64,000 bases of DNA from Chondrosia reniformis (lineage: Eukaryota > Porifera > Demospongiae > Chondrillida > Chondrillidae), in assembly GCA_947172415.1 (NCBI GenBank), contig OX359195.1, forward strand, positions 5,245,501 through 5,309,500, given 5' to 3'. The position numbers and the translations under genes were made by a program. Below are positions 1,500 to 48,837 of this stretch, piece after piece. The notes below the pieces were generated by a model. It made no database searches and was not told where the DNA came from. It worked only from the letters and a program-made list of their open reading frames with translations. The number at the start of each line of letters is the position of its first letter. Positions within the stretch are counted from its first letter, which is position 1.

Positions 1500-4165
1500 A
1501 GTAATTGGTTAATCCTTCAAATATTTCTAACAGTAAACATTATATTCAGTATAGGTACTTCTTGTCGATTGTGTTTAATTTCTTCTGAATCAGGAGTAGC
1601 CTTCTTCTTCACTCCAAGAATCTCATAAAGATTTTCACTATTAGAAGGCACATGTGTATACGTATATTAAACATACAATCAGTACATCATTAACAGATAT
1701 GTATAGGTAAACATACTTCTTATGCATATGCACATAACTGATAATCAAACCACAATTATTAACATCACGAGGAGAGAAAAAGGTGAATGAAGCATTTGCT
1801 AGGAAACCCTGTATAGCTGGTTATGACCACCAGTGCTCTACTACTTAGCTATAATTACCACAGAATTGCTCCATTCATGCTCCCCTTTTTATAACAACAA
1901 AAATAATAACTTCCACTCTTTAAATATTATACTAATTAGTGGAGATTATAATTATTATGCACAAACGTTATTCATCAACGAAAAATATAATATTACATCA
2001 ACAATCAATACTGAAACCCATCCAGTTGCAGTAATTTGGTTTGTACAGTTAATGATATATACAAGCACCTTCCTATGTTAAAGGGTCTTCTTAAATCAGT
2101 TAGGCCTGTGAGTCTATACTTACCTGTCCCTTCTTCTGCGAGGTTGTGGGTCGCCCATAATCTACTGAGGACTTCCCCTCCTTGATCACATGACTCGCAT
2201 ACAAATTATTATACACTGTACCAAAATGGTTTCTGGTGACTCCTTTTTGCCACTATACCAATACATTATCTGGATCCTCCTATATATGAATATTGGGTTT
2301 AGAGATTTTGTGCAACTAGCTAATATATAATAATAATAATAATAATAATTGTTTATTAAAGTGACACATGCTATAACCAAAAAAGCAGCACTAGGCCAAG
2401 CCGGGCCCATGAGTCACTATAACAAAATTAATGTAATGTAATTAAAGGTAAAGTAAAGTATGTCTAGTCTATATAGAGTCACTGATTCATAAGTCTGGAC
2501 TGGAGTCTCTGATAGCTATATATCTATTTAATTAAGAAAATTTGAGCATATTTCAACAAAAAGTAGCTAGCTAAACTCTTCAGATGACATATTTTGAAGG
2601 ACTCATGATCAAAGTTGGCAAGTAACTGAAATATCCAATTGCACCATTATCTAATATCTAGAGACCATTTATATTAAATTTTGTTTTTGATTTTTTTTAC
2701 TAGGTATATTATACCACAAGTCTACAAGACACTGATCTCAAGTCCAATATAACATACATTTAAAATTCACTGCTACCTAAAAAGTATAATATTATGTACA
2801 GTGTATCATAATTCATAATTATAAGAGTTTAAACTGTACAAATATATAGACAAGTGTGACTGTCTACCACAAAATGTACTCCCACCATAGATATGACTGG
2901 TATGTCAAAAATGTTATGGGAGGGGCTATAAATCCTAAAGTCTGTTCTTGTATAAGCAAGCCATCATATAGGGGTTTTACCCTGCATGTTTAATCTATAT
3001 ATGTACACAGTCTTGAAGGTGTTATACTAACGATTATTCATAAGGACTGGTGGGACTGAATCACCCGCGCATTTGGTACATCTTTAGATCTGTTGAACTA
3101 GTCCTCGGCAAGACTTAAGAAGTTCAGAAACTATATAATGGTAAATTAGCTTTCATAATAAGTAAATTATAACTATATACTATATTGAATCGTATACTAC
3201 ATCATACTCATCTAGCAGTGATTACATACATTGTCTATTATATGTCTACAATTCAGTACCCAACTCCTTGCAGACAAGCTTTAACAGGGGCGTCATCATA
3301 CGGGATCTATTTGGTTCGCAAATTCCGGCCCTCCTTCAGTTTTCGCACGCGATCGACCGGAACTACCCCGGCGTCCTTAGGGATATATATTCGTGGAATT
3401 TCATAAGGGGGTTGGTGTTTTATTTTTTAGCCTTCCTTCGCTGATTCCACCTTACTTTCGTTATTCGCCGTTACGGTAATAGGATAAGCGCGATAAAGGA
3501 TAAGTGCTATACTATAGAATTCGAAATTGAGTCAACATCTCAATTATAGCTACAAAGGCAACGTATATCTATACATCAATTATTTTCCAGATGTGTAGGT
3601 ACTGTATAATAGTGTTATTGCTAGCTCTCTATTTACCTCTGGAAAGACTATACTTATGATTAAAAGTAAAAGACTTCGCCGTCGTTCCTAGTATTATGTC
3701 AACGTTTACGTAGATACTTATATCAATCAATCAATCAATATTATTATTAGAGTGCACCGTGCCCATTGGCACTAGGGCACGGATTGGCCCCATGCAGCAC
3801 TTACAAGACGAAATCAATAATATGAACATGCAAAATAGAGCTAACTGAACCTTGCATGCCACATACACAAAATATTCGACAAGAGTTCATAGTTGTTACA
3901 CGCAGCCGACAGCAGAGATGCAGTAGAATCCTGGGTACTGCACTTGTCACTATGTCGTTGCATCCAGGCCTTCAATTGTATACGCGTTGGGATTTCCATG
4001 CTTCACACCTCATCTTATATATGGGGAAGGGTGAAGGATCGATGGTACAGAAATAAGTCGGTGACCATGGCCCTATATTCACGTATCAATTACCCCAAAT
4101 CAACAAGGAACAATAATTTTATGGTCAGTCGATGGCACTTTAACAACGCAGAACGGGAGTACTCT
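1500..4165. other. Gene-poor stretch with LINE tails
   Basis: I see no supportable coding exon here. A run of ATA repeats at about 2326-2350 followed by a short conserved tail, and TCAA/ATT repeats at 3724-3750 followed by a segment (3751-3850) resembling the LINE 3' region at 45175-45240, look like 3' ends of minus-strand LINE copies. A short, more GC-rich patch at 3280-3420 is unexplained. A 5' exon of the kinase gene could lie here, but I could not pick it out. Confidence 0.5.
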
Positions 4166-4169
4166 AAGT

Positions 4170-4870
4170 AGGAATGGCCGGAAAAAAACATGGCCACCAT
4201 ATCTAATGTAGTAGCAAGCGACACCTCATAAAATCACCAAGGAAGCGATTTTTGGTTTTTTGCAGCCATTAACGCACGCTTCTCTAAATGCCAAAACATG
4301 TTTCGACACTCTACACGCTCTACAACATTCAAAAAGTGGCTAACCAGGAATATGCCCATTTCCAAAATTCATTTTTTCTTCTTTTATTGAATGGACTAGC
4401 GCTAATATGCGAACTTATGTGGGCACGTACAAGTTATAAATCGTCATAGATATTTCCGAACTAGGGAATAGACAGCCCTAAGTACGAATGCGCTCTACAT
4501 GAAGCATGTTAATTGTGAAAAGCCAAAATTGTGGTCTTCTCAGCCGCCATTTTTAGACAAGTGATCTTAGTTTCGGCATATTTTTCTTGTCTGAGACGTT
4601 ATTTCGAGATTTTCGCCAAGAAAACTTTCAAAACTAATTAAAGTAAGTAATTTTAACAAGAAAAGGGGGAATATAAGTAAATAAAAAATTAACATAAATG
4701 ATGTTAGCTATAGGAATGGCAGTGCACCAACACATCTGTAAAAAGTATCGAAACAAGACAGTGATTATATATGATAAGGCTATAGCTAATCATACAGAAT
4801 TGCATATAAACTGAAATTTACCATACACTTCTGTGTTTGGGCACACCAAACTGGCTGTCATTCCTACTTT
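4170..4870. mobile_element. Non-autonomous DNA element (about 0.7 kb)
   Basis: The left end reads TAGGAATGGCC and the right end ends in GTCATTCCTA, a short terminal inverted repeat. The interior holds no ORF. Its right part (about 4738-4862) matches, inverted and diverged, the hairpin element at 42750-42960, including a segment about a 'cttctatgtttggrcgcacc' motif. A start like TAGGGATGGCC also occurs at 42389 and about 21774. I infer a MITE-like family; the mobilising transposase family is unknown. Confidence 0.55.
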
Positions 4871-5011
4871 TTAACATCATTTTTGTAAATGTTTTTTATT
4901 TACTTGTGTAAGAGTTCAAGTTTGTGTTTCCCTATATACATGATGTGTCATATATATACAACTAGAGGCCACTTTAAAATTTACTATAAAAATTTATTTG
5001 GATGTATGTAG

Positions 5012-8000
5012 GATTCGGAAAGTTATCAGCAAGATGTAACACAAGAAGACAGGATAGGTAAAGGCTCATTTTCAAAGGTTTACAAGGGGAAGTGGAATGG
5101 AACAACTTGTGCCATTAAAAAATTTAAACGTAAAGATATTCCAGCTGAAAAGGCTTACCAATTTATCAGCCACGAACTAAATATTTGGCAAAATTTGCGT
5201 CATCCTAATATAGTTTTACTCTACGAGGTGTATGAAGGAGAGCTTCCTGTCATAATATTGGAACTTATGGAAACAAATCTTGCCACCTATTTACAAAAAT
5301 TTAGTTCAAATAGAAAAGAATTACCCTTAGTTAACGTAGTATCAATTCTGAATCAGATCATTTTAGCTTTGATATATTTGCACAAGAGGAAACTGATTCA
5401 TGGAGATCTTACTGCTAATAATATTCTTTTGAGTATAATCGATTGTGATTTAGTTGCAAAAATTAGTGATTTTGGCATGGCAAGAGGCCTGAATGAATGC
5501 TGCCACGACATAACTGGAAGTTCACCTTGCCGGACTTTCTACATGCCTCCAGAAGCCACTGATAAAATAAGCACTGTGAAGTTGGACATATTTTCATTAG
5601 GTATTCTAGTCATTCACTGTGTGATTTGCAAGCTCCCCAAAGCTCTGAATGCTACTAAAGAAGTAGATTCAAAGCTAGTAGCACTCACAGAGTTTGAAAG
5701 ATACGAACCTCACCTTAAAGAATTTAACAAGTATGAAAAGATGCTTTTTGAGAATATTGTGAAGCAGTGTTTGCAGAACAACCCAGAAAAGAGACCATCT
5801 GTTTCAGATCTGAAAACTATCCTTGACAAGAATACTAGTGATCTAAAAGATCAAGGTTTTGATTTTAGCCGGCCAATCAAATCTCACCAGGCTCCAATAA
5901 CAGTCTATAATTATAATACTATCAGGGACACTACCATCAATCAAAGCCAACTAGCTGTTGGTTGTGGGAAGGAAGCAAACCCTCAGGAGACAGCTTCTGA
6001 TATAGTGAGCAAGCATGTATATTATGTCAACTCTTTACAACTGTTTCAGTGCTGAAATACTGTGTGATATACTGATTATTTTTCCTTTTTTAAGGAACCC
6101 TGTTTATTGGCTGTTGCAGACCAAGATGTCAGTGCAGCTGTGACAACAGATTCGACTGCTGGAAAACTTAAGTCAATCCCTTCCTCCAGTTCCATCAAAC
6201 TTGAGGTAAACTATGTATACATGTGGAAATGTTTCACATGCATACGTATTAACATATATATGGGAAAATATATACATGTGCAGAATACATAATACAGAAA
6301 GTATAATTTCAACCTGTAAATACTTGTATACTTATAAGGGTCAGAATCATTATAATAAGATACTCATATATCATGAAGAGAACAAACATTTCAATGTATT
6401 ATTAATTAAGTGTGAAGTATTATAGGGTGATAATTTTGAGTATATATGTACAATTTAAAGTTTAGTAGACGACTATATTTACATACTTTTTCCTCTTGTT
6501 CCTGTAGGATAATTCTGATGTTTTCACACATGATGCACATTTTGATCAAATCGAATATAGTAGTAGTTATAGTGATTATAGCCGTCCAGAGGAGAAGAGT
6601 GGCTTTTACTGGAAAAACTCTTCATCTTTGAAATATCCTGAATTAGCTCTCTCTGCATATTCTTCTGATGATATTCCAGTCAGAGGAAGCCGTCGACATA
6701 GTCACGTTACTCCGTTCAGTGGTTCCACTAATGATTCTAACTCTGAGGTGTTTGTTCCATTAGGACATCCTGACAGGCTTCTGCAAAGCAACCTTAGCAG
6801 ATCTGATCCATATTACTCCAGATCCATGCACAGTTCAGGAGAAAGATATTTAGGTACCTATGCAGGAATTAATGATAACCTGGAAAGGTCAGAAAAATTG
6901 GATCTATGCCTACTTTTCTCTTTAACAACATCAAAATATCAACCAGATGAGCAAAAGATGAACATCATGGAACAAATGGCCACTTCTCAATTTGCCTGCC
7001 AGGAAATGAAACGAAGTGGTTGCATAAACCTACTTTTAGAGATAATATACAACTGGGACAGAGAGGAAGACTTTTCACATCTTGCCATTAGAGAGAGGGC
7101 TTACATAATGCTAGTCCATTTAGTCAATGCTGAGAATGATCCAAGGCAAAGGGAATGTGAGGAAAATATTCTTTCAGACCTAGAAATCATAATGGATTAT
7201 GTGTGCGACATGTTGAAGGTATTGCATCATCTCAAAGTAGGAAGAGAAATTGGCATTTATTTCGATGAAAGAATGTTCTTTCATCATCTAAATAATCTAA
7301 GTGTCAAATCCTGCACAAAAGCTTATCAACCTATCCTTTTCTCATTAGGAGTACTTCAGGCACTTATGGAAGTACTAGTTATTAGCTGCAAACTAGCAAA
7401 GCATTTTAATGTACATCCATGTTCTTATATATCAAGTTTACTGCCTGCGCCTGCAGTCATCGCACTTATTTTGCAAGTTTTGGTAAGCCTGATTGGCCAT
7501 GCCAAGGATGCTAAAATCAAAACAAACCTCTGCCAAGCGCCAAATTTTCTTCACAGTATAGCCTATTTTATACAGAATGGCAGTGAAGAGGTGATACACT
7601 TTGCTGCTCAAGTAATACAACATATATCTTTGCAACCTGCACTTGAAGTGAAAGCTGCCCTATTTGAACATGAGATTGCAATGGTTTTATGTTGTGTATT
7701 GGGTACAGTCTGTAAGGCTACAACTCTGGATTCCATCATTAGAGCTTTACGGAACCTTTCTGATCATTCATCTAAAATGAAACAATCCATCTGTGTTTCG
7801 CCAACAGCGTTATCATTACTAGTAGGCTTACTTAACTATCACAGCCAGAGTCCATTAAGGTGGCAAATTGTAGTAAATGCTGGTAAGGTTCTCAGTAACC
7901 TCGCCGTTGTAATCTCACAAGATTCCTTTTTAAGAGCTAAAATAAGGAATGCAGGCTGCTACCAGAACTTGGGCGAGCACTTAGAGCTTGAGATGGAACA

Positions 8001-8205
8001 GTATAAAGAGATAATCAAGAATGCTTGTCGTATCCTCTTCCATCTATCTACCAGCAACAACATTCATGATCACATTGCTATGCTCAGATCAAAAATTCCG
8101 TTAAAACTCAAAAGCCTAGCAACTGCAAGGCATCAGATGATAGCTGATTTGGCTGGAGATACACTTAAAAATCTCTCTCAGGCTCCTAACTTTGCTGTTA
8201 ATTAA
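5012..8205 (+). CDS. Protein kinase fused to APC-type ARM-repeat domain
   Basis: Three exons, 5012-6004, 6095-6205 and 6508-8205, are separated by GT-AG introns and join in phase 0 to about 930 residues; the true N terminus is on an unseen upstream exon because an in-frame stop overlaps the 3' splice site at 5009-5011. Exon 1 is a complete kinase domain: glycine loop GKGSFSKVY, lysine in CAIKKF, alpha-C glutamate in ISHELNIW, catalytic loop IHGDLTANNILL, DFG, then MPPEA. It resembles TKL kinases; HGD replaces the usual HRD. The last exon has a Ser-rich linker and then ARM repeats matching APC in order: a block like SQFACQEMKRSGCINLLLEI (APC SQDSC..MRQSGCLPLLIQL), IRALRNLSDHSSKMKQSICV, LVGLLNYHSQS, and a final ARHQMIADLAGDTLKNL. 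APC C-terminal regions (beta-catenin and axin sites) are absent; translation stops just after the ARM domain. Domains are clear; the fusion rests on splice logic and needs transcript proof. Confidence 0.85.
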
Positions 8206-8838
8206 CATTATACATGGCAAATCATTATGTATGACATTATATCTAGTTTTATGTACTATGTATATTTATATGCTTATGAATGAGCTGTAATGAGGAATTA
8301 ATTGGTTATAGATTTATAAGCATGAAATTCAATTGTATAAAATGTCTTGCATATAACATACATACATGTACATTCATTTGTAGTCTGGCTTGCTAGCTAC
8401 TGTCCTTAAACAAGTGCCCAGGGGCAAGGAAATGTAGGGATGGTCCAGTGCCGTTAAAAATAAATAACACCCTTTTGATCAATCAGATCTGACTCCTCAG
8501 AATCTATATATATAGCTGTTCACACTCTTAGGTACAATCAATTAATGTTTGCTATTGCATGTACATCTATTAGTAATGACTTTGGAGAAACTGTCTGATT
8601 TCCATCTGTATGAGCTGACTAGGTGAAGATACTGTTTGACTTACGTGTGTTCTACTACGTAGTTAGAGCCACAGGAACTATTGATTACATTATTTCCAAT
8701 TGAATGGTTGCCAGGGAACTGCACCTGGTTGTCATGGAGACTTTTCTGTACAAAATGAAGTAATGTTAACGTTATAATATACAGAAGCAAACAAGATGTA
8801 CAATGTAAGTACATTAAAACTGCTTTATACCTCAGATG
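8206..8838. other. 3' flank of the kinase-ARM gene
   Basis: AT-rich sequence after the stop codon, with AATAAA-type polyadenylation motifs near 8460. No exon or clear repeat is visible until the satellite starts. Confidence 0.5.
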
Positions 8839-9900
8839 GGCCAGCACTATACCATTACCCTAAATGGGTGTAACCATAGCTACGTATATATATACTAGGA
8901 TCAGCTACGTCTACCCACAAGTTTAATCTGAGTCAGTTGAAGTAAGTATTCCTCTGTCTAGTTACTGGCCAGCACTATAACCATTACCCTAAATGAGTGT
9001 AACCATAGCTACGTATATATATACTAGGACCAGCTACGTCTACCCACAAGTTTAATCTGAGTCAGTTGAAGTAAGTATTCCTCTGTCTAGTTACTGGCCA
9101 GCACTATAACCATTACCCTAAATGAGTGTAACCATAGCTACGTATACATATACTAGGATCAGCTACGTCTACCCACAAGTTTAATCTGAGTCAGTTGAAG
9201 TAAGTATTCCTCTGTCTAGTTACTGGCCAGCACTATAACCATTACCCTAAATGAGTGTAACCATAGCTACGTATACATATACTAGGATCAGCTACGTCTA
9301 CCCACAAGTTTAATCTGAGTCAGTTGAAGTAAGTATTCCTCTGTCTAGTTACTGGCCAGCACTATAACCATTACCCTAAATGAGTGTAACCATAGCTACG
9401 TATATATATACTAGGATCAGCTACGTCTACCCACAAGTTTAATCTGAGTCAGTTGAAGTAAGTATTCCTCTGTCTAGTTACTGGCCAGCACTATAACCAT
9501 TACCCTAAATGAGTGTAACCATAGCTACGTATATATATACTAGGATCAGCTACGTCTACCCACAAGTTTAATCTGAGTCAGTTGAAGTAAGTATTCCTCT
9601 GTCTAGTTACTGGCCAGCACTATAACCATTACCCTAAATGGGTGTAACCATAGCTACGTATGTATATACTAGGATCAGCTACGTCTACCCACAAGTTTAA
9701 TCTGAGTCAGTTGAAGTAAGTATTCCTCTGTCTAGTTACTGGCCAGCACTATAACCATTACCCTAAATGAGTGTAACCATACGTAGCTACGTATATATAC
9801 TAGGATCAGCTACGTCTACCCACAGGTTTAATCTGAGTCAGTTGAAGTAAGTATTCCTCTGTCTAGTTACTGGCCAGCACTATAACCATTACCCTAAATG
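8839..9900. repeat. 129-base tandem satellite, eight units
   Basis: Units begin at 8839, 8967, 9096, 9225, 9354, 9483, 9612 and 9741, with a partial ninth from 9872. Each begins GGCCAGCACTATAACC and ends TCTAGTTACT. Period is 128 to 131 bases and the units are nearly identical, differing at a few sites such as the TACGTATATATATAC run. Unit seven carries GGGTG and unit eight an extra TACG. Near-identity implies recent expansion or conversion. No unit has a long ORF. Confidence 0.97.
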
Positions 9901-10609
9901 TCTCTATAGTTACCATAAATACTAAAGAAGAGTAAAACAAACAATTAAATCTCTTCGAAATATATTATGCACTGCAACCATGAATGTTTTTGATCCTCGA
10001 TCTCCTTGAGCTTCAACTGCTGATCAGATACCCCATACAATTATCTATACTTTGATGTTTGTACATAAACAGTATATGATTAAGCCTGTTATTGTCAATG
10101 AGTTAAGAAATGAGAATGTGCTATTTTGTTGCATTATGTATGAACACTACTTGATCTGACTTTTGTATTTTAACAATTGAAATGGCATAAATAAAGTTGC
10201 AAGAATAGTGTAGCATAGATTGATAAAATCAAAAAGGAATGATGTCATACAAGGCATTTCATGCAGATCAGAAGTAACAAGATAGTCTAAAACTAAAGAT
10301 GTTCAGCTTTTCTTTGATTTTATGTTCCACTTTGGTAACTTCTGAGGTCTGTATAGCAAAATTAATGAAGTTACAGTATGTCAATGGAATATGAGATGAA
10401 GGAACTGTTACAGTGACTATGGTCATGTTATATAATTTTACACATACGTATATATATTTAATACACTAAACTAGTAAGTATACTCAGCCATACATTCATA
10501 TAAACAGAACCCATTTCTTTCCAACTTATACTGCCATATTTGAGATATTGGGGATTTGTGGTTTTCTCATCATTTAAATTGTTATTAGAACTACAGTATA
10601 CAGTGTATC

Positions 10610-13600
10610 TTACTCTTTCAAAATGACAGTAGCTTCACTGGGCATTTTCTTTCCTCTTTTCAAAGGTGGCGAAGATGCTTCTCTAAATTCTTTTGAATCT
10701 CTGTCACTCAACTTGACCATGATAGGAGATGGTGGAGCTAAGGAACTCAAGTGGAATGTAATGTTCTGTGCCAAATCTGTCAGCAAAATGAAAAATGTTA
10801 GATTTGCTTACAACATGCAGGAAATACATTAAACGCATATAAGCTTCATGTAGCCACACGCTCATGAATAACTAAATTCAGTTAGACATACGTATGTAGT
10901 GACAGTTAATAATAAAGCAAGTAGATCTCAAAGTATATATGTGCACTATCCCTGTCCTATCGGTCTATATAAACCAGAGGAAGAATATTTAAATGAATAT
11001 TTAAATGTATCTAAAATTTATACAGCTGGGAAACACGTACATTTTGTGTTACTTCGGGTTGTAAGTGCTTAATCGTATAGTAACCGATCAGTATTGTGTC
11101 AAAAAGTGTATGTTTGATGCTCAAAAGATTTGGAAGATGAACCTTACAAAGATAGCTTGTATATAGTAAATACACAGAAACCTACCCTGAGGAGTGCTGG
11201 CTAGACGTCCACCATCAATAACAGAAGTGTTATCCTATAGTGTAGGATGGTGTAACAATAGTGATCCTCTTCATAGATGAAGGGGTCTGAGATTAAGGAC
11301 TTACTTCAAAGTAAGGTGTGCCTTGTGTAAGAGCATTATTGTCTTGCATCATCTTCTTGGAGGAATATTCAATACTGCAAATAAGCAAAAGAGTAGGATT
11401 AAATTATAAATGAATACATTTACTAAGAATGGCTTGTGTTACAGAGTGAAGCATCTCAGACACTCACGGCAAAGGGGCTTTGTTAGGAGTTGCTTTGGGT
11501 AGCCCTGTCCTTCGAGCAGAGGCCAGTATAGCAGCCTTGGCTAGAGTGTTAACAGTCTTGGGAGTAGCAAAGCCTCCACCAACATGAGGAGTGGAAATGG
11601 GCCTGCATTGGGAGGATATAGAGAGAGGGGAGACATTGGGTGAGGTGGGAGGCAGTGGAGATACGTACGTACATACACTCTACATACATCTGTATACATG
11701 TGTACATTTAAACAGTATACAGTACATAGAATACAGAACAAAGCATATCAGCTTGCATACTTTGAGACTGGAGTGTTTACTTGAGTCACCACTTTCCCCT
11801 GATTTGGTAATGGTGTAAGGACTACTGAAATGTTTTGGAATGACCTTTTAACTCTTGGACTCAACTTTGGGGGAGTTAAAGAAGACAGTTTTTGTTCTTT
11901 ATTGGATACAGCACTGCCAAGGGCACCAGGGGTCAACAAAGGTGATACCTACAGTACACAAGATTATCTTTTCTATGAATTGCACTATAGTTTAGTCATG
12001 AGCAATTTAACATTGTTTCCCTACAAACTGCATACTGTACGTACATCTATTCAACAGTAAAGGTCTATAAAAGAAGCTAAATTTAGTGATAGCTTTGGAT
12101 GAGGATGCAAGTTGGTTCTCTTTATTATACTGTTACAATAGCCCATATGCATACGTACATATCATAAGCACTAGCATATTTATCAGTTTTATCATAGATC
12201 TGCAAGCAGTGGACTGGAAACAGCACGATGATATTTAGCTACATTACAGTACTGTATAGTGCATCCTAAGGATGCTACTAACTCATGAAGTCACATCGGG
12301 AGTCGAGTGAGAACTTGAAATTTATGATTTTTAAAGGGCCATACTACACTGATATGACTTAAGCTTCCATTTGGTATTTAACTGTTTGTGTTTGTAAATC
12401 TATATGTTTATATATACTGTACGTATGTACGTATGCAACTATGAAATATGACTCTAAGCAACCTGATATAATACATGCTTACCATTCTAGCATGAGGGGT
12501 AGTGGTCAAAGGAGTTTTGGATGCTGCAACTGTCATCTTCTGCTGTTCATCTTCAAACTTCTTCAAATCAAAGTTAATCTCTTCTGCCAACTGAAGGTCT
12601 GCTGCAAGTAAATCTAAATGACAGGTACATACATAATACTGCTATGAAATCTTATATGTTGTACATGTACATACTTCAAATACATACATACTGTACATAT
12701 TATGTATGTACCATTTATTTCTGTTTTATAGTCTTTCATCAGTTCCTGTAGAAACAACATCAGATCCTTCAGCAAAGGTGACCTTGCCTTCTCCAACTAG
12801 ATAAAAGGATGCATAATTATACTGAACGTTCGCCTACCTATTGCTGCACAGTTGAATATATACAAGGTATAGATAGGTATTTGATATACATATGCATTAC
12901 AGTGAGGTTCTTACAAGTTGCTTTGCGGCTATAACTGTTGGGATGACATTTTCTATTACATTCTTTTTGGCAATCTGCAAGTAGAGATGAATACATCAGA
13001 TGTGTGCATAAGCGTGCATACCACAGCTGATATACAACAGATAATGCATGGGATCTTGTGGAGAGGATGTGGAAAGGATTTCCCTGTCTGGGATGTATCC
13101 ATTTCAGGAAGTGGAGAAACATCCTCTTCTCCACTTCCTGCCGAATGTCACATGGCAGAAGCAGGATTGGTGGAAAGAGTTGTCTGTAAAGGAGGCAACA
13201 AGTCTCCATCCATGTGTAACTGAAGAAGGCTCAGGTTCAAAATGTCTGAAAAGAAGCTTAAACCAAAATCTGCATATTTAGATGCTCAAAGGGATCGAAA
13301 GATGAATCCTTTGAAGATAAGCGTCTAGTAAACTTACCCTAGTACTGAAATATGTAAATTTAATTATTCCATAATTTGTTACATTTTAATGATTTATTTA
13401 CCCTATTATACTTATACATAAAGGCGTATACGTAGGTACCACTACAGTTATATGTATAATTTACACTGGTTTCTTACTGTAGATAATGCCTTAGTTCTTG
13501 CTGTCTCAACAGCTGCTCCTATTAAATCACCTTCGTCTGCTAAATCATCAACCAGATTCTTTCTCAGTGATTTTAACTTAATCTCCTGGTTATAAGAAAT

Positions 13601-17349: not shown

Positions 17350-20300
17350 CGTATATAGAGATGTGATTGTAATAAATTGTGTAATATGCAAAATATGTAT
17401 GATAAGAACCTGTGCCACTTCTCCTGTAGTAAAGAGATAGGCAATGATTGCATCATCTTCAAAATGTCCTGTAAACACAAAGCATATACACTTTAATCAC
17501 AATATCTTTTATAGAGTACGTACATGTACTTACTAATGTACTATTAGCTAATCATATTGGGTCACAGAGATATACGTATATACCAACCTCTTGCAGTAAA
17601 CTTACTTTCTTGCTTCAACAAGGATGCTAGACAAGTTTCACATTCTTTCAGAATTTCTCCAAAAAATGGATCCAACTATACAATGAAGTAAAAATACAGC
17701 AATCAGACACTATTCAACCAAACCTACCCTATAGGTAGTACACATAGGAGAAGACAGCTTGAGAAAGAATGAACATGTGTGGGAATTGAACCCGCGATAG
17801 TCTGTTCAAGCTAAACTGTCAGTATTGTGTATATCAGTGTGTAGTTATATGTAATGTACCCACCAATTTCTTTTGCTTGGGAATGACCTCAGAAACCTGA
17901 ATGTACATATGAAACAGACGGAAACATTAATCCCTTAATTGTGCAATATAAAATGTCGCATTAAACACCATTGCACATACAAGTACGTATGTACATACCG
18001 TATTATCTCCAATATACGTAAGCCCGGGGCTTGTATTAAAGATAATACGAAATGTATAACATCATCAATTGTGTAAGTGTACAAACCTTTTTCAAATACA
18101 AATGTAAGACAAAGCAAGTGTTCTCAGTGAATATGGACACCTTCTTTCAAGTATTAAATAGGTACTGTATTGCTAACACAGATATGTCAATGTAGTTCTG
18201 ACCCAGATAGGACTAGTAATGTGACAGCCATTAATTAAATTGGCATCCTTTAAAAAATTATTTTTTATGACAAATAGGTAAAATGAGAATGGGTATACAA
18301 AGTAAGACAAATTTCTGTAACTGGATAGGAACTTATGAGATACATATATGTTCAAGGCAAAATGTCAAAAGTCAAAGTCAGAGCTGGGACTTGACCTTCA
18401 GCACAGGTCAAATTGATTGCATCACAAAATGCTGTTCATCTTTGTGATAAACTAGCCCCATGTAGGCATGCTATTGCTTTTAGTCGGCACCTCAGCCAAA
18501 ATATTGTTTGGCTGACCAGTTCGCCGGCATCCTTGCAATTTTATTAGTGTATCTATAAACTACAAATTCATTAAGTAGTCTTGTGTACAATAAGCTATAA
18601 CAGGTACATTCTATACAAGTGACATCAATCCAGAAAAGGCAGTCTCAGTTGTTAACTGATATCACGACTACCTTACAGTCTGTAGTATAGACAATTGGTC
18701 GTTGACATAGTAACCTGGTTCTAATGGGAGCACTTGGTGTGAACAAGTGAAGGAGGAAGGTAAACCCACGTAAAACACTAAACAAAACAGCTACACAAAA
18801 TATATTTTAATAAAAGTTAAACAAACATGTATAGCTTATGTACGTACGTATGTACATACTGCGTGACTGTGTAATATTTTCATTGATTTGTTGGAAATTT
18901 AGGTTTTGTAACTTTAAAGTTCACTTCAGAATGATAGGCATTTTGCGATTCAACCACGTTTTCTCCCAACAATTATCATCACTAAGTATAAACCACCCTT
19001 CACGTAAGTTTAATACACTATTTAGACAGTGTACGTTATAAAATTCATTATTGTTTTACACAATGTGTGTGTGTTACCATATGGAACTCATCAGTAATAA
19101 AATTTGGCTTTGTCCAGTTATTGAGCAATACAGTTGCCTAGCAGCAGGGCTAGCTTTATCACTTCACAAAAAATGGCTATCTATGTAAATGGAGACAGCA
19201 CTAAAGTAAACAGTGCTGTACAGAAGTACAAATGTAGCAAACAAAGTGGTTTGTACTTCAGCTGTATAGACATTACACATGCATACCTGACTTTCTCATA
19301 CCAATATTATTTAGCTTTGTGTTTCTGGGTGACTATGAATTCATTGTTGATGTGGATATATGGTTACCATATGATTGTCATTATTATTATTATTATTACA
19401 AACAAGTCTGTAGTATAGACAATTGGTTGTTGACATAGTAACCTGGTTCTAATGGGAGCACTTGGTGTGAACAAATGAATTCGAAGGAGGAGGCCATTTG
19501 GATCATCAGTTTCAATAAAGGATACATAAACCACATAAACAGCTGACAACAACATGACTTTGTTTTAACAATATCACACCATAGTACATGGTGTGATGGT
19601 GTATGACCTTACAATTGCAGGTATAAGAACCTCACACTCTATAGAGGTCATTACAGTCTATATAGACAGATCAGTATAGAAAGTACGTAAAGGTGAAATA
19701 ATTGTATCAGTAACAAATAAAATTAACTCCAGGACTTCAGAGATATTGTAAGTTTTTGAAAAACGTACTGTACTGTACATCATGTCTATTTAAGAAGTGG
19801 ATGTATACAGAGCTATGTACTACACTGTTCTTGTTTATGGACACATTAAATATTGTTTAGGGATTGATAAAATCATTATAAATCCTTGGAATTTGCTTTG
19901 TTTTTGTTTTTATCATAAGGTAACCGTTGGTTTGTCAATTATTATTACCTGACAGAGTAATACCAAACTATAATAAAATAATGATTCTGCATCAAACTGT
20001 AGAATCCCCTCAGGGTTGAAACATCTGATGCTCAGGAGAGACAACAAAACTGCATCTTTAGATGCTCTAAAAGTCGAAAGATGATCCTCAAAAGATAAAT
20101 ATCAAACTTCACAGTTTTTTAAATTTGCATGTAATATACATACAGTACGTACATAGGTAAGTATAGATCACAGAAATGAGTATTAAAAACATACTGTTTA
20201 TATTAGGTACAGAACATATTGGATAAAATTATCACTGCAATGATCCTAAAAAGAGTGACAGCAATTCCCGCTCTTATATTCCCTGCATTATTGATGATAC

Positions 20301-23300
20301 AAGCCACACAAGGTAACAAGACATGCCATTACAATCCTACTGGTAGGATACAACTGGCAGTAGATGTTCTAGGTGTTCCAGGACCAGAGGGTCCACCTGG
20401 TCCACAAGGTCCAACTGGGGAGAGAGGCGATCAAGGTGTGCAAGGTCCCAAAGGAGAACGAGGTTCGCCAGGTCCCAGAAGATGTAGACGAAAAGGTATG
20501 AAAGGTATGAAAGGGTCAGCAGGTGATCCAGGTCCTCCTGGACCACCTGGAGCACCTGGAAACATAACTTTAGAAGCGGTTAGTAGGATGATTAAAGAAG
20601 AAATAACTAAATGTGAAATCAAGATAATACAAGCGGAAGACAGGTTGGCTAAATTGGAACATCATATTTTCCCCTATGAAACCAACTTTTGCAATGTCAG
20701 TGGTAAAGGCACTAGAGTAGGATATATTAATATGGAAGAGATGACTACATGTCCTGGTGGAATGAAATTTGCTAGTAATAATATAACTGGACAAAGAGCT
20801 TGTGGAATAAATGATGATGTTGGTGGATGCCCTGTGTCTATACCATTTAAAGCAAATACATCTTATACTCAAGTTTGTGGTCGTGTAAGAGGCTATCAAT
20901 TTGGAAAAACAGAAGGATTTTATCATAAAAGTATACAAGGTGTTGACTCTACTGGCATCATCTTCAGATTTGAGGATTCTAATGAGCCAATCTGGAGTTA
21001 TGTAGCAGCACTCAGTGAAGTTGGTGTGCCTGATAGTCAGAAGTGTCCACGAGATAGATTAAATATAACAAATAGATTAGATGTTCCATCAAATGTTAAT
21101 GACCATTTCTATTGTGAAACTGGCTTTGAGAAATATCCAGAAGAAAATTCACAAAAAGATGATGTATTTTTGGGGGATCCTCTTTGGGATGGGACCGGAT
21201 GTATTTCCAATTCAAGTCATTCCTGTGAAGCTTACGGATGGTTTCATCGCCGGGTTGAACCAAATGATATGAGCATACGAGTCGAAATTTTTAGAAAAAA
21301 TTCTAATCAAAATATTTTCATTGATCTGCTGGATCTTTGGGTTTTGTAGCTTTCACACCTTTTGAAAACATTCAAAGCTCATGCTTGAATGATTAGTACT
21401 CTGGCAATTCAGCAACATTTCCTTCATTCAATTATTTCATTAATTTGTATTACTAACTTCACATAAGTTTAATACACTATTTAGACAGTTTGGGCTGGCA
21501 TTTACAAAAATGTAATGTACAAATTTACTATGGTTTGTATTATATACTGAGTGTTGGGTAGTGTAGTCTTGTAGCATGCTTTGGACTCCTGGCCCTTTGC
21601 TCTACCTGCCAAAAGGAACAGAAATCCTCAGGTGTCATACTGACTATTACAGTTAACATGGTCTGTTACCTGTAGCTGATAGACGGAAAGTTTAGCAGAC
21701 AGACCCTTACAATGGCATTATTACTTATTTATTACTATAGTTATCTGCACTGTCTATCTCCACGTGTATGAACAGGGATGGCATGAAAAAACATGGCCAC
21801 CCTATTCAATGTGTTTTATTACAATTATACATACAGTATGTGTACGCAGCTAAAGTCAAGCCTCTATTATCTGAGACAGTAGTCAGTATATACAGTTACA
21901 TACCTGCCAGCAGACTACAGAAGCTACATACTGTACTAGGCTGAAAAAACTGAACTGTCAGACATTTTCTTCCAGGTCTTAAACTCTATTCTAATTGATG
22001 CAAGTATTTTCACCATATACAATTATACAGTGTACTTACAGTATAAATTTTATATTCTTCAGTAAAACATATTGCACATTTATCTTAAATATTCCATGAT
22101 TAAAGACTGATGGTACCTTTCAACAAAATGGTGGACGCTTAAGCACCTAATTTCTTTTAAGATTTAAAATAGTTTTTGCTTTAGTTGAACCAAAGATTGA
22201 ACAGTTGACGAGTCTTTTAAAATCATCTTTAATAATACTAAACCAACGAAAACCTTCACAAAAGGTATTCATATTTACTGGTATTTCCTGTATTGCTGGT
22301 TGTACATGTGACAGAACAGCTCCACAACTCCACAACTGCTGCATATACGTATGTATGTATGTATGTATGTATGTATGTATGTATGTATGTATGTATGTAT
22401 GTATGTATGTATGTATGTATGTATGTATGTATGTATGTATGTATGTATGTATGTATGTATGTATGTATGTATGTATGTATGTATGTATGTATGTATGTAT
22501 GTATGTATGTATGTATGTATGTATGTATGTATGTATGTATGTATGTATGTATGTATGTATATTAACTAGTTGAATTTAAAGCTTTGCAATAAGGAGCTTC
22601 ACAATGTACTACAGACATCATACATAATGTGTAATACTGTAAGAATGACTCGTCTGTGAATACACAGATGAGTTATTGGATTGGGAAAATGAGTTTTATT
22701 AAATTGATGTACTGATTTGAACTCATTACAATCATAAGACCAGAGTGGTCTGTAACAATGAACGTTGAAATAGAAAGAATTCCATTTTAATTACATTACG
22801 GCATATTGCTCTGTTGGACTATGCACTTGTCTGTACATAGGTATTACAGATTTGTGAATTGATAACTGCATGGGGCTCTTTGAAGTAGAATTGATAAATC
22901 AGATGCTCCATTTGCTTTATTTGTACTGAAAGTGAACTGTTCCACATATTTTGTCAAGAAGAAGTCCCCCAACTGTGAAGTTATGGTCAAAATCCTTTCC
23001 TTTATCAATTTTTCTACTAATTTTAGAAACTAGTTACAAAATTTTAAAAATGCTCTAACTCCTGAGACAACTACAATCAATACAAAATTTTAAAAATGCT
23101 CTAACTCCTGAGACAACTACAATCAATACAAATATTAAATAATACAAATTTTAGTACATAACTGCACCGTATTTGGTGGACACCATAAAAGGAACGTCAG
23201 CTCCAAGCAAATTTGACATTTAGACATAGGCAGTCATCATATGCATGTACTGTATATAGAGCAATAGTTACAGACTGTCAGCAGCTAGATCACATGACCT

Positions 23301-26300
23301 ATTAATTACATTTTGCATCTACATACATAGTACACTCTACAGGGATTAGGGATTCATATAAATACATTTAAATAATGTACATTGGAATGGCTTCCAATTA
23401 GGTTAATATTTACTTGGAGGTATTTAAAGTAAGATTCCAGTATATTTACAGTTAGCTAGAATATTCTGGTGGATAATATTATAGAAGTAAGATCAGCTCT
23501 ACTCATCATGTAAGTACACATTTTAAGTATTACGTAGATAAAAATTGAGCAAGTCAACCTATATAATGGTGTAGCAAAGGGATAAATTCAGTATATATAC
23601 GAATAAGGTGATATTTTGGCTTTGTCAAACATACTTTAATAACAAAGTACTCTAGTATACAAATACAGTAGTATATATTAAAAATCTTCATTTTTAGTAA
23701 AGCATTGAGAACAAGAACAGTTGCAATGATCCTGAAAAGAGTGACAGTAATTCCCGCTCTCATATTCCCTGTATTACTGATGATACAAGCCACACTAGAC
23801 AACAAGACATGCCTTTCCAATCCTACTGGTAAGATACAACTGGCAGTAGATGTTCTAGGTGTCCCAGGACCAGAGGGTCCACCTGGTCCACAAGGTCCAC
23901 CTGGGGAGAGAGGCAGGCAAGGCATGCTAGGTCCCAAAGGAGAACAAGGGAGATCAGGGGAGCGTGGCCCTATTGGTAGACCTGGATTGCCAGGTACTCA
24001 AGGACCTACTGGTCCACTTGGTCCCGAAGGACCAGAAGGCATAGAAGGACCACCTGGAACAAGGGGACCTCGGGGAACACAAGGAGTACAAGGTCCCCTT
24101 GGGCCAAAAGGGTCAGTGGGTGATCCAGGTTTGTCTGGTCCTCCAGGTCCCCCTGGACCCCCTGGGGACACCACTTTAGACGAAGAAGAATTTAGTAAGA
24201 TGACTAACTATGTGACAAGACAAGTAGTTGCAAATTTTACAGGGATGGTTGAAGAAGAAAGAAGACAATGTCAAATGAAGATAAACCAAGTAGAAGATAG
24301 ATTGCTCACTCTGATTGAACGCTTTCATTCACCCTATGAAACCAACTTTTGCAATGTCGGTGGTAAAGGCACTAGAGTAGGATATATTAATATGGAAGAG
24401 AGGACTACATGTCCTAGTGGAATGAAATTTGCTAGTAATAATATAACTGGACAGAGAGCTTGTGGAATAAATGATTATATTGGAGAATGCCCAATTTCTA
24501 TGACATTTCAAGTAAACAAAAACTATACTCATGTTTGTGGTCGCATGAGAGGTTATCAATATGGAAGAACACAAGGATTCGCTTATTCTTCTAGTAGATC
24601 ATCTGCAGGGGCTTACATTGATGGTGTCTCCATCACACGCGGCAGTTCATATGACCATCTTTGGACTTATGCAGTAGGGCTGGATGAACTTCATCCAATT
24701 GACCGTGCAAAGTGTCCTCGAGATAGATCAGATTCAACTGATAGATCATTTGTCCCTTCATTTGTCGGTGAACATTTCTACTGTGAAACTGGTTTTATAA
24801 ACTTTGAAAGTGGCTTCTCTTGGGAACCACTTTGGGATGGAGCCGGATGTATTTCCGATTCAAGTCATTCCTGTGAAGCTTATGGATGGTTTCATCGTCA
24901 TGTTAACCAAACTCAAGACTATATACAAGTTAGATTGTGTTCCAACCGCCCTCAACGTAGATATAAAAGTGTTTACATTGATCTGCTGGAAATCTGGGTC
25001 AGATAAATTATAATTGTTTCTACTCTTTGATCTAACTACAATGATTGCAACAATACTCGTAATTTCAAGTACTTCAATCTATACACAATACAGTCAACAA
25101 CTACATGTGTACGTACATGCCATATTTTGGTGCTGTCTAACTTGTAGTCATTTATAAGCTTTTTTGGTCACTGGGTTACCTGTTTTACAGTACATTGGTG
25201 TATGTATGTAGATATTCTGAGAAATATATAATATTTAACAAACATGTCACCTCAGTGGATAATTAAGATTCCACATAGATACGTAGGATTTGTATGTTCT
25301 GATACGTAATAGCCAAGCTGAGCCAAGGATTCACAGAAGATCAAGACAAAGAAAAAGACAAAGACTCCCAGGATCACTGATGAAGGGTGGAATTCCCAGA
25401 AACGGCTGTCTGACCCAGTGGAGAAGAAGATGAATAAAGGGATAAGAGGGAAAAGAGAAAAGAAGAAAGAAAAGACTCCTGTATCTTCATCCAAAGCTCT
25501 CTTCAGGTTTAGTTCCCCTATAGGCTCTTTTACAGAATAGGCATAGCATGTAGGAAAATGGTATCTTAGATTTTTCATGTATATAATGTAATTTTGGAAA
25601 TTATTGTGTGCGGAAACATTCATGTGATACATTTTCATTTTGAAAAATAATTTTGTAGCTAAGCACAGAACACCATAAAGTCAAGTTAAGGCATTTGTGA
25701 AAAATTTTCATGGTTTGAGCCAACCATCAAAACATTTTAATAATGAAAATTTCCCAAATTATGGTAGATACATACTGTAAGATGCTATAATCATGCAGCA
25801 ACATAGCAACATATGTAGAAAACAAATTTAAATGAACTGGCCTTTTCACTAAAAAAGCAAATTTTAAACTTTAGAAATTACTGGTGACATATAGTAAGAA
25901 AAAAGAATAAACCAGATACAAAATTACAAGTAATGCCTTTATATACGTATGTAGTTACTGTTCTTCCAGGTTGAAGCTTTGCATTGCATTTCATCAAACT
26001 AAACTTACGTCTGATTATTTAACTAGTTTGCCTATTTATACTCTTAGAGGAATTCTCAAAGAACCCAAACTTCAACTAAATCAGTGAGTACATCCTCATT
26101 CTTCCTCTCTTGAAATGAACACCACCTCACCTCTATATAGTCATCGGTTGGGTCAACAACCCTGTGAAACCATCCGTGTCTCTTACAAGACCTACTAGAT
26201 GGGAGAATGCACTCCTCTCCGTCCCACAAGGGATCCTTCCACATGATAGTGCCACCGAAATCTAGAAAACCAGTCTCGCAGTAGTAGTTCAAGCCAACAA

Positions 26301-29300
26301 AATCTGGAACTCGAAAGGTTAATTTCTGACCAGTCTGATCCATTGGACATAAAGAGTGTCTGTTTTCATATCTCTCATCCAGACCTACTGCAAATGTCCA
26401 AAGGTGCTTTCGTGGTTTGCCATGGGTGATGGAAAGGCCATCAACATATGCCTCATCAATGGTTTTGTTGGGCGAGTACTGGAAGGCCTCCATTGCTCCA
26501 AATTGGTACCCTCTTGCCCTTCCACACACCTGAGTATAGTTCTTCTTCACTTTAAATTTAACAGATGAACAGCCAATGTCCACAGTCCTGCCATAGGCTA
26601 ACATACCACTATCTTTATCATAAACCTCTTGTAGGCCAATAGGGCAAATAGCTCCATCCTGGTAAACATCAATAAACACAATTCTGGTCCAGTTGGTACT
26701 TGTAATGTTGCACAAGTTTGGGTATCCTGAAGCTACTCTGCTGTCATTATGATGCAGTGGAGAGATATCAGTTTCTGGAGCATTGCTTATGTCATCTTCG
26801 TCATTCTCAAAATGGTCATATTCCACTTCATCTCCTTCAAAACTATCATCAACCTGTTCTCCATCAGCTTCATCTTCAATTTCTATTACAACTTCTTCAT
26901 CAATATCTTCATCTGCTTCCTTAGAGTGTTTAACAGAAATAGGATCCTCAAACGAGTCCATTTTGGGACCAGAATCAAAATCTGATGCATTAGCAGTAAG
27001 AATATTAAAAGCTTGGTTAGCTAAAACATCAATATTTTCTAAAGGAATTGAAGTCTTGTAACTTTGAAAGAGCTTTAAAACTTTCTTCATGACTATATCA
27101 CTGACTCTCTGTACTATTAGGTCCAGCTGCTCTGGTGCCAAGTGTACGCTAGCATTATCGTTAAAGCTTTTACTATCTTCAGTACTTTTCTCTGGTTTCT
27201 CATCAAAGGTAAAGTCACCTTCAACAGTTGCTTCATCTTCAAAGATGGACACTTCAATATTTATAGTTGGGGAAGAGGAGCAATCCTCTGACTTCCCTTT
27301 AGACAGGAACATTAAGAAGCCAGTCACAAGGTATATAAGCAGGAACTGTTTCTCAGGTAGAAACATGGGACTTTCTGAGCAATTTGAAGATATTAAGGAC
27401 CAAATAAGATACTCAACTGGAGATTGATCTACTTCAAATACAAAATGTGTTATGGATGTAGGCTAGTGAATACTCTTTCCAACTTACTATTTACAGTGTG
27501 GTCACCACAGGAGGATGTACAACCCCCTTCCATTAGCACAGCAATTAACAGATTTCCTATTACTTAAATATGTCACAGAAGATGTACCCATTCACACAAT
27601 AAATAGCCAAGGTGAAGAACCAATCAAATTGCACACAGTATTTTCTAGATGACCAATCAAACTCCTTTTAGTAACCCTTCAAAATAGGTGGAGTTACTGG
27701 TTTGTATACTGAAATGAGGCAAACTCCTGTAACCATAAACTGTAAAGATAAGAAGGACCTAAGATTATTGGGATAGTACAAAAATCAGTCATGTCTACAG
27801 AAAGAAATATTCAAGCCTAATATTAAGTCACAGGTACAGTCAAACCAATTAATTACTTAATATTCTGGAGGCATATTAAGACAATAATTTCAAGTAACTC
27901 TTTATATTGTACAGAGAGATCAAGTCAGATATTTCTAAAGATTGCTCAACAGTTATATCAAACATGAAGAGTATGATGACAACTGCTCTACTACTGTTGG
28001 TAGCTTGTGTGTTTTTACAGCTCAGCTGGGCGGAAGAGAAGTGCTCAGAAACAACAAAGAAACCTATTACTATAAAGATATCAGTATACACAGGAAGAAA
28101 GTCCAACAGAACTACACTACACACTTCCACTGATACACCAGGCAACTCCTCTAGGCCAGGTGAGAAGGGAGACCAGGGGGAGAAAGGGGAAAGGGGACCA
28201 AAAGGTCAAACTGGTCCTCGTGGCCCCAAAGGTGAACCTGGCATGCAAGCACCCACAAAGAATCTCCCGGAAAGAATACTTAATGAAGTGAGCAATAAAA
28301 TTATGCAAGATGTGAGAGAACTACTAGTAGATGAGCTTAAAGAGATTAGAGCAGTAGTTCACAATGTAACACTCTCACAGTTGGAGTCCGGATATCCAAA
28401 CCTTTGTAACATCAGAGACAGCCGATGGAAACAAATTGTTCACCTTAACATGAGTAGCTACAGATCAAGGTGTCCAGCAGAACTTAGAGAAGTTAAAAAC
28501 AAGGCAACAGGACAGAGAGCTTGCGGCAGAACAGCAGAGTATGGTTGTTCCTCGCTGCTGTACAATCCGGGGCAGGAGTACACTGATGTATGTGCTCGTG
28601 TGAGAGGCTACCAGTACGGACAGACAGAAGGATTCAAACCCTCTGGCGGTAGAAATATTGATGAAGCTTACCTGGACGGCATATCAATAACATATGGACT
28701 TCCCAGACACCACATCTGGTCCTTAGTTGCAGGTTATAACGAAGTATATAACGATCTCTATCGCTGTCCGGAGGACCGTACTGACCCACAGGATATGCGA
28801 CGGATACCTACCTTTGTGATGAAGAACTATTACTGTGAAGCTGGAATCACTGACGGGTACCCTGAGAGGGAGGTTGTATGGGACAACCCCCTCTGGGATG
28901 GAAAGGGGTGTGTCCTGGAGACAGCCCATTCATGTGAGAGGTCTGGCTGGTTTTATCGCAAATTGCCACCCACCCAAAAGAATATTGAAGTTAGACTGTG
29001 TGGGAGCACGGTAACCATGTTACGAGATACTCTTTTAGACTGGCTAGAGATATGGGTATTAAATACATAGTCAAATCACATGTATTAACAAACTTTTATA
29101 CTTTTAAAAGTGTATTTATACGTATGTATATGTACACACACTCACCTTAATAATGGCTTGTAAGGATGATGTAATTACAGCCGGTGAACAAGTAAAACTC
29201 CTCAGTAATTTCCTCAAATCACCTACAGTATGTATACGTACGTACATACATATATGTACACACACATACGTACGTGTATGTATACTGTATATAAATACGT

Positions 29301-42960: not shown

Positions 42961-43374
42961 TAACTATGAATAATATTAGTTGTCGAATCCCGTTTCTAAT
43001 GATATTCATACTCCAGTAAAATGGATTCCGAGCTATTTGTACAAGATGTGCCACGCAATGAGAACAGCGTTGAGTTGAGCTATGGCGAGTTCGACATTTT
43101 ATAAAACCTTTCTATCACAGTGTTATTATTAATTTAACGGTAAACAGGTACAGCCTGAAGCAGACTCCCCATGTCCTAAGCTAAATTTATTTTTCGGTTA
43201 TTAGATCGGTACAGCCCGAAGCAGGCTGCACACTTCTACACAGTCATTTTAATTTTAAATGTTTCATTGGACATGCCTGCATATAACAAAACATGCAGTA
43301 TTAGCTGATAGGCACCACCTGAAAGAGGTTCCACCCAACTAGAGTATACATATTTTTTGTATTGTTACTTACAG

Positions 43375-44619
43375 AATGACATGTCCATGCAATCTGAAGC
43401 AGGATCCCAACATCAATTACATATATGGGGGCCAAGAGTTGAATCAAACATTAGCCATATCAAGACCAAATTAAAGGTATAATACTTTTTGTAGAGGTTG
43501 GTGTATGGTACTCTAAATGAATTTTACTAATATATAACAATGCTCTTCAAAATATATGTATAAGTAATGAATGTACCATAAATCCAGCCCAATCTATTGT
43601 TGAGGAGTGCGAAGCTAAAGTTGATAAATAATTAAGAGGCATTTCTTAGACTTTTCTCAAATTGTTGGCCATTGTTAACATTTGATTTCTACTCTCAATC
43701 CCCCATGTGCTAGTAATGGCTTAAGTTTAGTAATTTTACAGACACCGCTTTAGGAAGAGACCTTAAAGTTTGTAATTTTGTTAATATCATCAATTTTAAC
43801 TTCTAAAAATATTTCTAGCAATCGGAAGTTGACAGCAAACACAGAAAGCTAGATTATTACTAACCAAAATGAACTAGCCTACCACAAAAGTTGCCAAAAA
43901 AGATTAAGTTAAATACCACTTACCTATCCAATGAATATCATGACTAGCACAACTTTTCAAGTTCCAATAGTCAGTGAGGTTTTGACATTATGCGCGAAAG
44001 ACCGCCAGTTTCTCTCCCAGTTTATTCTGGTGCTGCTGTGTCATTGTGGTCAGCCAATGAATAACGATAACAGTTAAAATTTGGAGGGAACTCTCTTTAT
44101 TAGGTTATACACCCATAAATTAGCTTGCAAGAAGAATGACTACAAGCAGCGGACACCACTAAAGGCTTCCAAGTCCTAACTTCCAGGTACATTAGTAGTA
44201 TAATGAATCAATTTACTGTTGTTTTATTGTTGTTGATTCAGGCAATGGATTCAGCAATTTTACAGCAATTAGAAAGAGCTGCACTCATGATTAAAGTAAG
44301 CTGATTGCTGAATCTACACTAAACCCTTTATTAAGATAGATTTCATTCTGCAGAACTATAGATGAACGAATCTGGATGTCATAAAATTGAGTCTAAAGTA
44401 CGTAGGTTACTTATCAATTGTAAGCCTTATACACAGACATATGTCAAGTTGCTTCTCTCAATTCAAGTAGCCAGCCAATAAGAGCAAAACTCTCACAAAA
44501 GTCTGTTATTTATGAATTTGTATGTTTTGAATAATACCATAGGTAATAAGTTTTGTATTTGCATACTCTGTTACGTTTCTCTATTTATCATGCAGTTTGA
44601 TGATGAAGATGTACAGTAA
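43375..44619 (+). CDS. Possible small gene, 3' exons (copy 1)
   Basis: Three short exons with GT-AG borders, 43375-43476, 44242-44295 and 44596-44619, join in phase 0 and end in a stop, giving a 59-residue C terminus (…MQSEAGSQHQ…, AMDSAILQQLERAALMIK, FDDEDVQ). An AATAAA follows at 44681. The first of these exons resembles the hairpin-repeat unit peptide (VQPETGSPHSHSQ), so upstream exons may lie in the repeat; an ATG at 43020 opens a 27-codon ORF that may or may not belong. No family recognised. The same three exons are kept in copy 2. This is exon logic without homology, so it stays tentative. Confidence 0.35.
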
Positions 44620-45141
44620 AGAACCAAGTGATGAAGAATTCAGAACTATGAACTGTAACTTTTATTATTTTTGTAATCTTAATAAAGAATTATTATTATA
44701 GAATTACTTCCAGTGAATTTTATATGAAAGGCGTATTCACAGTTAGTTCAAAAAATGTAATTCATAGCTTACTTAACAACTACAAATTGGGTTGAAGGCA
44801 TTAGTGTATTCATTGCCAATTTTTAAATTTACTCATAGGTCACAGTGATGTTGTAAACAGATGAATTCACAACCTTTAGCATAGTTGCAAATTAGCCATT
44901 TACAGATTGTGTAAACTATTTGTACTCAAACCCAAACAACCAGTTTACAATGTTGCAAACTACTCTATTTATTGCCTTGTTGTAGTATATATTATATATG
45001 CCTTAATTGTCAAACTATATAACACTTCTGTACTGTTCTAGATCTTCTATTGATGTTGTAACATAGATATACACCCGTTTATATAATATCATATATAGCT
45101 ACTAAATACATTATTATACAAATTCCTCCTATACATCTCTA

Positions 45142-47732: not shown

Positions 47733-47976
47733 CCTTGAATTCCTAAAAACCTATAGTGTGTGCCACCATAACAACCCAAAACATTTTCATCACATTCAAG
47801 TTCGGAATGAGCAAAAATACCAAAATTTGTATGAGTGAAATTGTGATTAAGACATTAGTCTGGACTTAGTGTCGCCATGGTAACGCAACTTGCAAATCCC
47901 TAGAAAATGGCCGCATTTTCAATTTCTCCTTTATTTAGAATTTTTGAATAGCAGCTTTGTACATTAACTATAATTT

Positions 47977-48079: not shown

Positions 48080-48086
48080 GAGTGAT

Positions 48087-48353: not shown

Positions 48354-48481
48354 GGTATCATATATGTAGAAATTTAAAATTAATTGTTTAAGGAAATGCT
48401 TTTATAATGGGATGATTAAAATAAGTATGCATAAAGTAAGAAAAGTTACAGAACAAAAATTTGAACAAGTAACCTGACTAG

Positions 48482-48826: not shown

Positions 48827-48837
48827 GTTACTTATAA

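Follow-up and report, generated by a model that had tools for sequence, protein, structure and literature searches.

A sponge gene model that would join a non-RD protein kinase to an APC-derived armadillo solenoid

APC, a scaffold protein, is familiar from Wnt signalling and from bowel cancer. In the window analyzed here, a 64,000-nucleotide stretch of contig OX359195.1 from the sponge Chondrosia reniformis (positions 5,245,501 to 5,309,500), an exon with an APC-like armadillo (ARM) domain follows a protein kinase exon on the same strand. The locus thus raises the question of whether the two exons encode one protein, from where its ARM domain would have come, and what such a domain would do for a kinase. 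Together the results suggest that a single gene probably encodes a non-RD kinase with a C-terminal APC-derived solenoid, spliced as one protein. The gene model consists of the following features.

5009-5011, plus strand: in-frame TAG, also the splice acceptor of the kinase exon, abutting position 5012
5012-6004, plus strand: kinase exon, 331 codons, ending at the donor GTGAGC
6005-6094, plus strand: intron 1, GT-AG, phase 0, GTGAGC...TTTTTTAAG
6095-6205, plus strand: linker exon (exon 2), 37 codons, Met-free, with coding-like codon use in frame
6206-6507, plus strand: intron 2, GT-AG, phase 0, GTAAAC...CCTGTAG
6508-8205, plus strand: ARM exon, 565 codons (6508-8202) and the stop TAA at 8203-8205
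8459-8464, plus strand: AATAAA polyadenylation signal 3' of the ARM stop, from a hexamer scan

Joined in phase 0, the three exons leave 933 codons open up to the TAA at 8203-8205, and the description of both introns as GT-AG and phase 0 in an earlier note on this DNA was borne out. The frame is kept as well when exon 2 is skipped, and a second in-phase GT is available to the kinase exon donor at 6017. A kinase-ARM fusion requires splicing, since the unspliced kinase frame reads through for 16 codons past 6004 and stops at a TGA at 6053-6055. The earlier note had also reported neither a stop nor a polyadenylation signal between the two parts. This holds for the spliced frame and for AATAAA and ATTAAA, both absent between the kinase and ARM exons in a scan for eight polyadenylation hexamers, but not for the unspliced TGA or for weak variants of the signal, AATATA at 6267 and AATACA at 6284 and 6291. 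Donor patterns scanned across the same interval, intron 2 included, gave no alternative first coding exon. The open frame of the ARM exon begins at its acceptor, and its first in-frame ATG is codon 106, just ahead of the solenoid.

At the 5' end, an upstream first coding exon is needed, because the in-frame TAG abuts position 5012 and no Met precedes the kinase lobe within its exon. An upstream scan for ATG-to-donor candidates in phase 0 gave a few short ones, none of which had other support; the candidate with the best donor has 11 codons, with its donor at the end of 2075-2107. Frames of at least 75 codons in the 20 kb upstream of the window, inspected by eye, held no evident partner exon.

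For codon use we applied a measure whose training set was the genome's APC exon and 29 further kinase places. Three stretches score positive in frame (the kinase exon, exon 2 and ARM exon codons 1-105), and intron 1, intron 2 and the 16-codon kinase read-through after 6004 all score negative. None of the 275 open 111-base frames from 2401-4900 reached the score of exon 2, which was reached by 57 of 1707 overlapping open 111-base frames in a wider, presumed non-coding background. The first background included intron 2 and the wider one excluded it, and both agree. The measure is a weak one, because the per-codon scores are small and most of the ARM exon is near zero (+0.018 with the first background and -0.010 with the wider one for the rest of that exon). 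The joined protein is nonetheless the best reading, because the frame is open for 933 codons, exon 2 is Met-free and coding-like, the introns score negative, and neither AATAAA or ATTAAA nor an alternative first exon was found in between.

The earlier description of a kinase exon with all of its catalytic residues agrees with a Pfam match to PF00069 (E 1.5e-42, 146 bits) and with the positions of the residues themselves, with the qualification that the Arg of HRD is replaced by Gly, which makes this a non-RD kinase.

5042-5812, plus strand: protein kinase domain PF00069, residues 11-267, by Pfam
5399-5422, plus strand: catalytic loop HGDLTANN, non-RD
within 5468-5482, plus strand: DFG motif
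5894-5986, plus strand: kinase C-tail segment, weakly resembling the tails of the kinases L007 and L022 elsewhere in the genome, by eye and in a three-row alignment

The glycine loop, the Lys, the alpha-C Glu, the catalytic Asp and Asn, DFG, PPE (APE-type) and the later Asp and Arg are all present; we take their roles to be those usual for kinases. Ser/Thr kinases carry DLK in the catalytic loop where this loop reads DLT, so that the substrate type may be Ser/Thr or Tyr. The best 60 of 2422 sequence matches in the PDB were mixed, with CDPK2, HCK, NEK7, IRAK4 and B-Raf among others, and we therefore claim no kinase group.

The genome searched (117,379,552 bases in 15 contigs; the available text of PMC12181767 gives the assembly as 117.37 Mb in 14 chromosomes plus the mitochondrial genome) matches the kinase in at least 120 places at E<=1e-5, with 120 of 329 candidates scored. 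The same text mentions Ensembl and BRAKER3 gene models for this assembly. Among the scored candidates, the ten best other matches are 38-45% identical. The window kinase shares a catalytic loop of the HGDLTANN kind with several of this genome's other kinases. In a tree of 30 domains, taken from the best 30 places, no close relative of the window kinase is supported, and its end branch measures 1.06. Several of the others bear coiled-coil or other stretches C-terminal of the kinase, as judged by eye, so the C-terminal partner of these kinases varies. The tail alignment of the window kinase, L007 and L022 has three invariant columns. Genome searches with the L007 and L022 tails matched only themselves, and a query of the window tail together with exon 2 gave its own locus and a single further place, at E 6.1. 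A RHIM-like motif was considered for the tail and rejected, as Pfam gave no RHIM match on it at E<=5.

The ARM exon is collinear with human APC (3nmz, E 3.8e-27, query 107-557), a match that bears out the earlier observation that its blocks follow the order of the APC ARM domain.

6508-6873, plus strand: stretch ahead of the solenoid, residues 1-122, pLDDT <50
6874-8193, plus strand: APC-type PreARM and ARM solenoid, residues 123-562, alpha-helical in the predicted structure
7486-7488, plus strand: Ser327 in place of human APC groove Asn507, by alignment
7618-7623, plus strand: Gln371-His372 in place of human APC Arg549-Asn550, by alignment

The structure model of the solenoid is confident, and residues 1-122 are probably disordered in that model. 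The likeness of residues 1-128 to the APC pre-ARM was marginal by shuffles (5 of 500 with the ordinary Chondrosia copy, 49 of 500 with Halisarca and 290 of 500 with P0005), so it carries little weight for coding 5' of codon 106. The Pfam Arm model gave no report for this exon at E<=1, and it is homology to APC, the tree and the fold that carry the ARM assignment. From codon 42 on, the exon agrees with a database protein, P0001, whose frame is intact and which differs at 6 of 524 residues; this protein may come from the other haplotype.

Elsewhere in the genome, the ARM exon has a single match, the ordinary APC gene. The latter lies at L003 3844-6942, tail to tail with a kinase-like frame (L003 342-2084) that by eye has what looks like a membrane-spanning stretch and a catalytic loop degenerated from HRD to HRK. 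We built a tree of 36 proteins, comprising the window ARM, the genome's own APC and 34 chosen from 103 other proteins (P0002-P0104). A tree of the ARM part with APC, beta-catenin and ARMC families had been proposed in the earlier note, and in ours the ARM part groups with APC, not away from it. The window ARM is sister to the genome's own APC with support of 99/98, and the pair sits in a nine-row clade that includes the named Halisarca dujardinii APC. Removing two catenins and P0095 left the same sister placement, at 99/97. A tree forced to group the clade's eight other rows apart from the window ARM is worse by 9.97 log units (p-AU 0.044), and an older duplication is thereby only just rejected. 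The end branch of the window ARM is 1.42 versus 0.28 for the ordinary copy; the tree program issued a long-branch warning, and the long branch makes the placement less sure and calls for caution. Overall, sequence, tree and predicted fold support descent of the ARM part from APC, and the best explanation appears to be that it is a duplicate of the PreARM-ARM solenoid of the sponge's own APC, specific to this lineage and rapidly diverged. The long branch could reflect loose constraint instead of a new role.

The divergence is evident in columns that are otherwise fixed. Across 30 APC rows, 64 columns reach at least 95% identity, with two catenins, P0095, P0002 and the two Chondrosia rows left out of the count. 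The ordinary copy keeps 62 of the 64 and the window ARM 41, with 23 changed, and unevenly so: invariant Leu are kept at 17 of 18 positions, Asn at 5 of 8, Gly at 2 of 6 and Trp at neither of 2. According to the available text of PMC8100458, Asn507 and Asn550 of the human APC groove are critical for Asef binding. Human numbering was mapped by a constant offset of 36 from a fish APC row, and by this mapping both equivalents are still Asn in the genome's ordinary APC and both are changed in the window ARM. Lys516 is kept (Lys338 in the window ARM), as are two later conserved Asn, 416 and 464. With both classic groove residues changed, Asef-type partners are unlikely, and a role in cis or the binding of new partners would be likelier.

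If the exons are indeed spliced into a single cytoplasmic protein, its kinase would be expected to be active, and the solenoid would act in docking or regulation, directing the kinase to partners distinct from the known ligands of the APC groove. Alternatively, the solenoid may fold back on the kinase or the linker in cis. We tentatively propose that the duplicated APC arm is a built-in targeting or control domain of an active kinase, its groove rewired for new ligands or for its own linker; this goes beyond the joined gene model and is held with less confidence. The earlier note had a kinase tethered to an APC-like ARM scaffold. Its APC descent stands, as does the join as the best reading of the DNA, but the arm is a diverged duplicate that keeps 41 of the 64 columns.

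Two other readings of the same exons have to be weighed against a joined protein with a working arm. The DNA could hold two same-strand genes, a kinase ending at 6053-6055 and an ARM-only APC paralogue starting at the codon 106 Met. Several other kinase frames of this genome do have short tails, and the position of that first ATG just before the solenoid would suit such a start. However, exon 2 scores as coding, is Met-free and is best fitted as an internal exon, codons 1-105 of the ARM exon also score positive, and the 16-codon end that this kinase would require scores negative. Furthermore, neither AATAAA nor ATTAAA occurs in the 503 bases between kinase and ARM exons, and the scan of this gap gave no alternative first exon. 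We consider two genes unlikely. The second reading accepts an expressed fusion and takes the ARM part for an APC copy in decay or acting as a decoy, with little to contribute, the fusion being an accident under weak constraint. The branch lengths (1.42 versus 0.28), the 23 changed columns and the absence of the APC tail point in that direction. Against this, the 565 codons are open, the frame is also intact in the second sequence, P0001, the Leu positions are nearly all kept (17 of 18) and the solenoid model is confident; we regard decay as quite improbable.

A third possibility concerns Wnt signalling, in which the fused kinase would replace Axin by phosphorylating beta-catenin from the APC arm without an Axin bridge. 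The available text of PMC8235796 reports that no Axin was found in the transcriptome of Halisarca dujardinii, a sponge whose APC falls in the same clade as the window ARM. In the genome studied here, however, an RGS stretch at C4:7062064-7062411 precedes, on one strand and within 2.6 kb, two DIX stretches at C4:7064130 and 7064552, an order that fits Axin, with the second DIX stretch below the family cut-off. The closeness of these stretches on one C4 strand disfavours the bypass. CK1 and GSK3 are absent among the best 60 of 2422 PDB matches of the kinase, and the ARM exon is without beta-catenin-binding repeats. A bypass of Axin is therefore very improbable to us, and the fusion protein would not be expected to act in the Wnt destruction complex.

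The lack of those repeats was part of the earlier note, which stated that the APC regions for beta-catenin and axin are missing. This is correct in that Pfam reports none of the 15-aa, 20-aa and SAMP repeats for the ARM exon at E<=1, but it does not set the window protein apart. The genome's own APC exon likewise gave no Pfam match to the three repeats, nor are they in the listed Pfam domains of 22 sponge-type APC matches (P0003-P0024), only two of them named to species and many of them gene calls of one exon. Truncated APC has been reported for sponges (PMC5684314, in its available text). Within the kinase and ARM exons, the APC coiled coil also had no Pfam match; the upstream first exon may encode one. 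The window protein thus resembles sponge-type APC in its PreARM-ARM solenoid and in the missing repeats, and is unlike it in the N-terminal kinase and the changed equivalents of Asn507 and Asn550. Human APC ends in a PDZ-binding [ST]-x-[VLI]. Such an end is found in 21 of the 22 matches and in the genome's APC, whereas the fused protein ends in NFAVN, with no APC tail and no [ST]-x-[VLI] end.

As for its origin, the arm would most likely go back to a segment of the single large APC exon that was copied as DNA, landed 3' of an older kinase gene and then acquired splice sites. The stretch from kinase to ARM, including intron 2, has no second copy found in the genome. A 746-base direct repeat (328-1073 and 10073-10810, 96% identical) flanks the kinase-ARM gene; other copies, all partial, were detected only on this contig, some 10 kb before the window begins, counts that are lower bounds. 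Local repeats were considered as the origin of the fusion and rejected: the repeat was detected in this neighbourhood only, the intervening stretch gave no second copy, and no mechanism follows.

Other features of the neighbourhood are recorded here in their own right. Directly 3' of the gene, at 8839-9900, lie about eight copies of a 129-base unit, 98% alike. Farther along, a 6-kb tandem duplication pairs 43125-49125 with 49829-54477 and 59458-60491 (97.6-99% identical); the second copy is split by about 5 kb with long frames that by eye resemble a LINE-type retroelement (54580-59288), and the first copy represents the unsplit site. By eye, a cluster of six frames (20207-21349, 23672-25006, 26056-27462 and 27898-29070 in the window, L041 2483-3397 and L042 6617-7633) shares a Cys-rich C-terminal domain, CGRxRGYQFG ... 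HSCExxGWFHR, and three of the six have collagen-like Gly-X-Y stretches.

Kinases with a superhelical arm are not themselves new. ULK4 carries a C-terminal ARM/HEAT arm. The available text of PMC10565251 likewise describes CdaH and Stk36 with an N-terminal kinase and a C-terminal ARM/HEAT superhelix. The window protein is like Fused/STK36 and ULK4 in this order, with the kinase N-terminal and an ARM or HEAT superhelix C-terminal, and is unlike them in that its arm is APC by sequence, tree and fold, the Fused arms being known here by description. Neither ULK nor STK36 is named among the best 60 of 2422 PDB sequence matches of the kinase.

The earlier note knew of no described protein with this architecture, and our protein and literature searches likewise found none. 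Among proteins found by ARM-part queries there was no other kinase-ARM join; a first such query found P0001 alone, the ARM part of the fused query found two proteins, P0001 and a barnacle APC, and a kinase Pfam domain was listed in none of the 102 proteins found with the ARM of the ordinary copy. The same order in other sponges, which the earlier note proposed to look for, did not appear as an ortholog. This is weak evidence, because each of these ARM-part searches was bound by exact shared words, a length of 0.55-1.75 times that of the query and about 8000 candidates scored. A literature search covering titles and the starts of abstracts, with few subscription papers, gave no sponge kinase-APC or kinase-armadillo protein. 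As far as these searches show, ARM/HEAT-armed kinases are known as a kind and an APC-derived arm on a kinase is new.

The kinase-scaffold join has been seen so far in one sponge only. If the transcript is confirmed, it would be a natural example of one chain uniting a kinase with an APC scaffold arm, two parts that normally belong to different proteins. If this reading is true, the APC armadillo domain can leave its Wnt work, duplicate and serve as a kinase-targeting module. Furthermore, because the same genome retains an ordinary APC, the fused arm and the ordinary arm would form a matched pair for asking which groove residues set the choice of partner.
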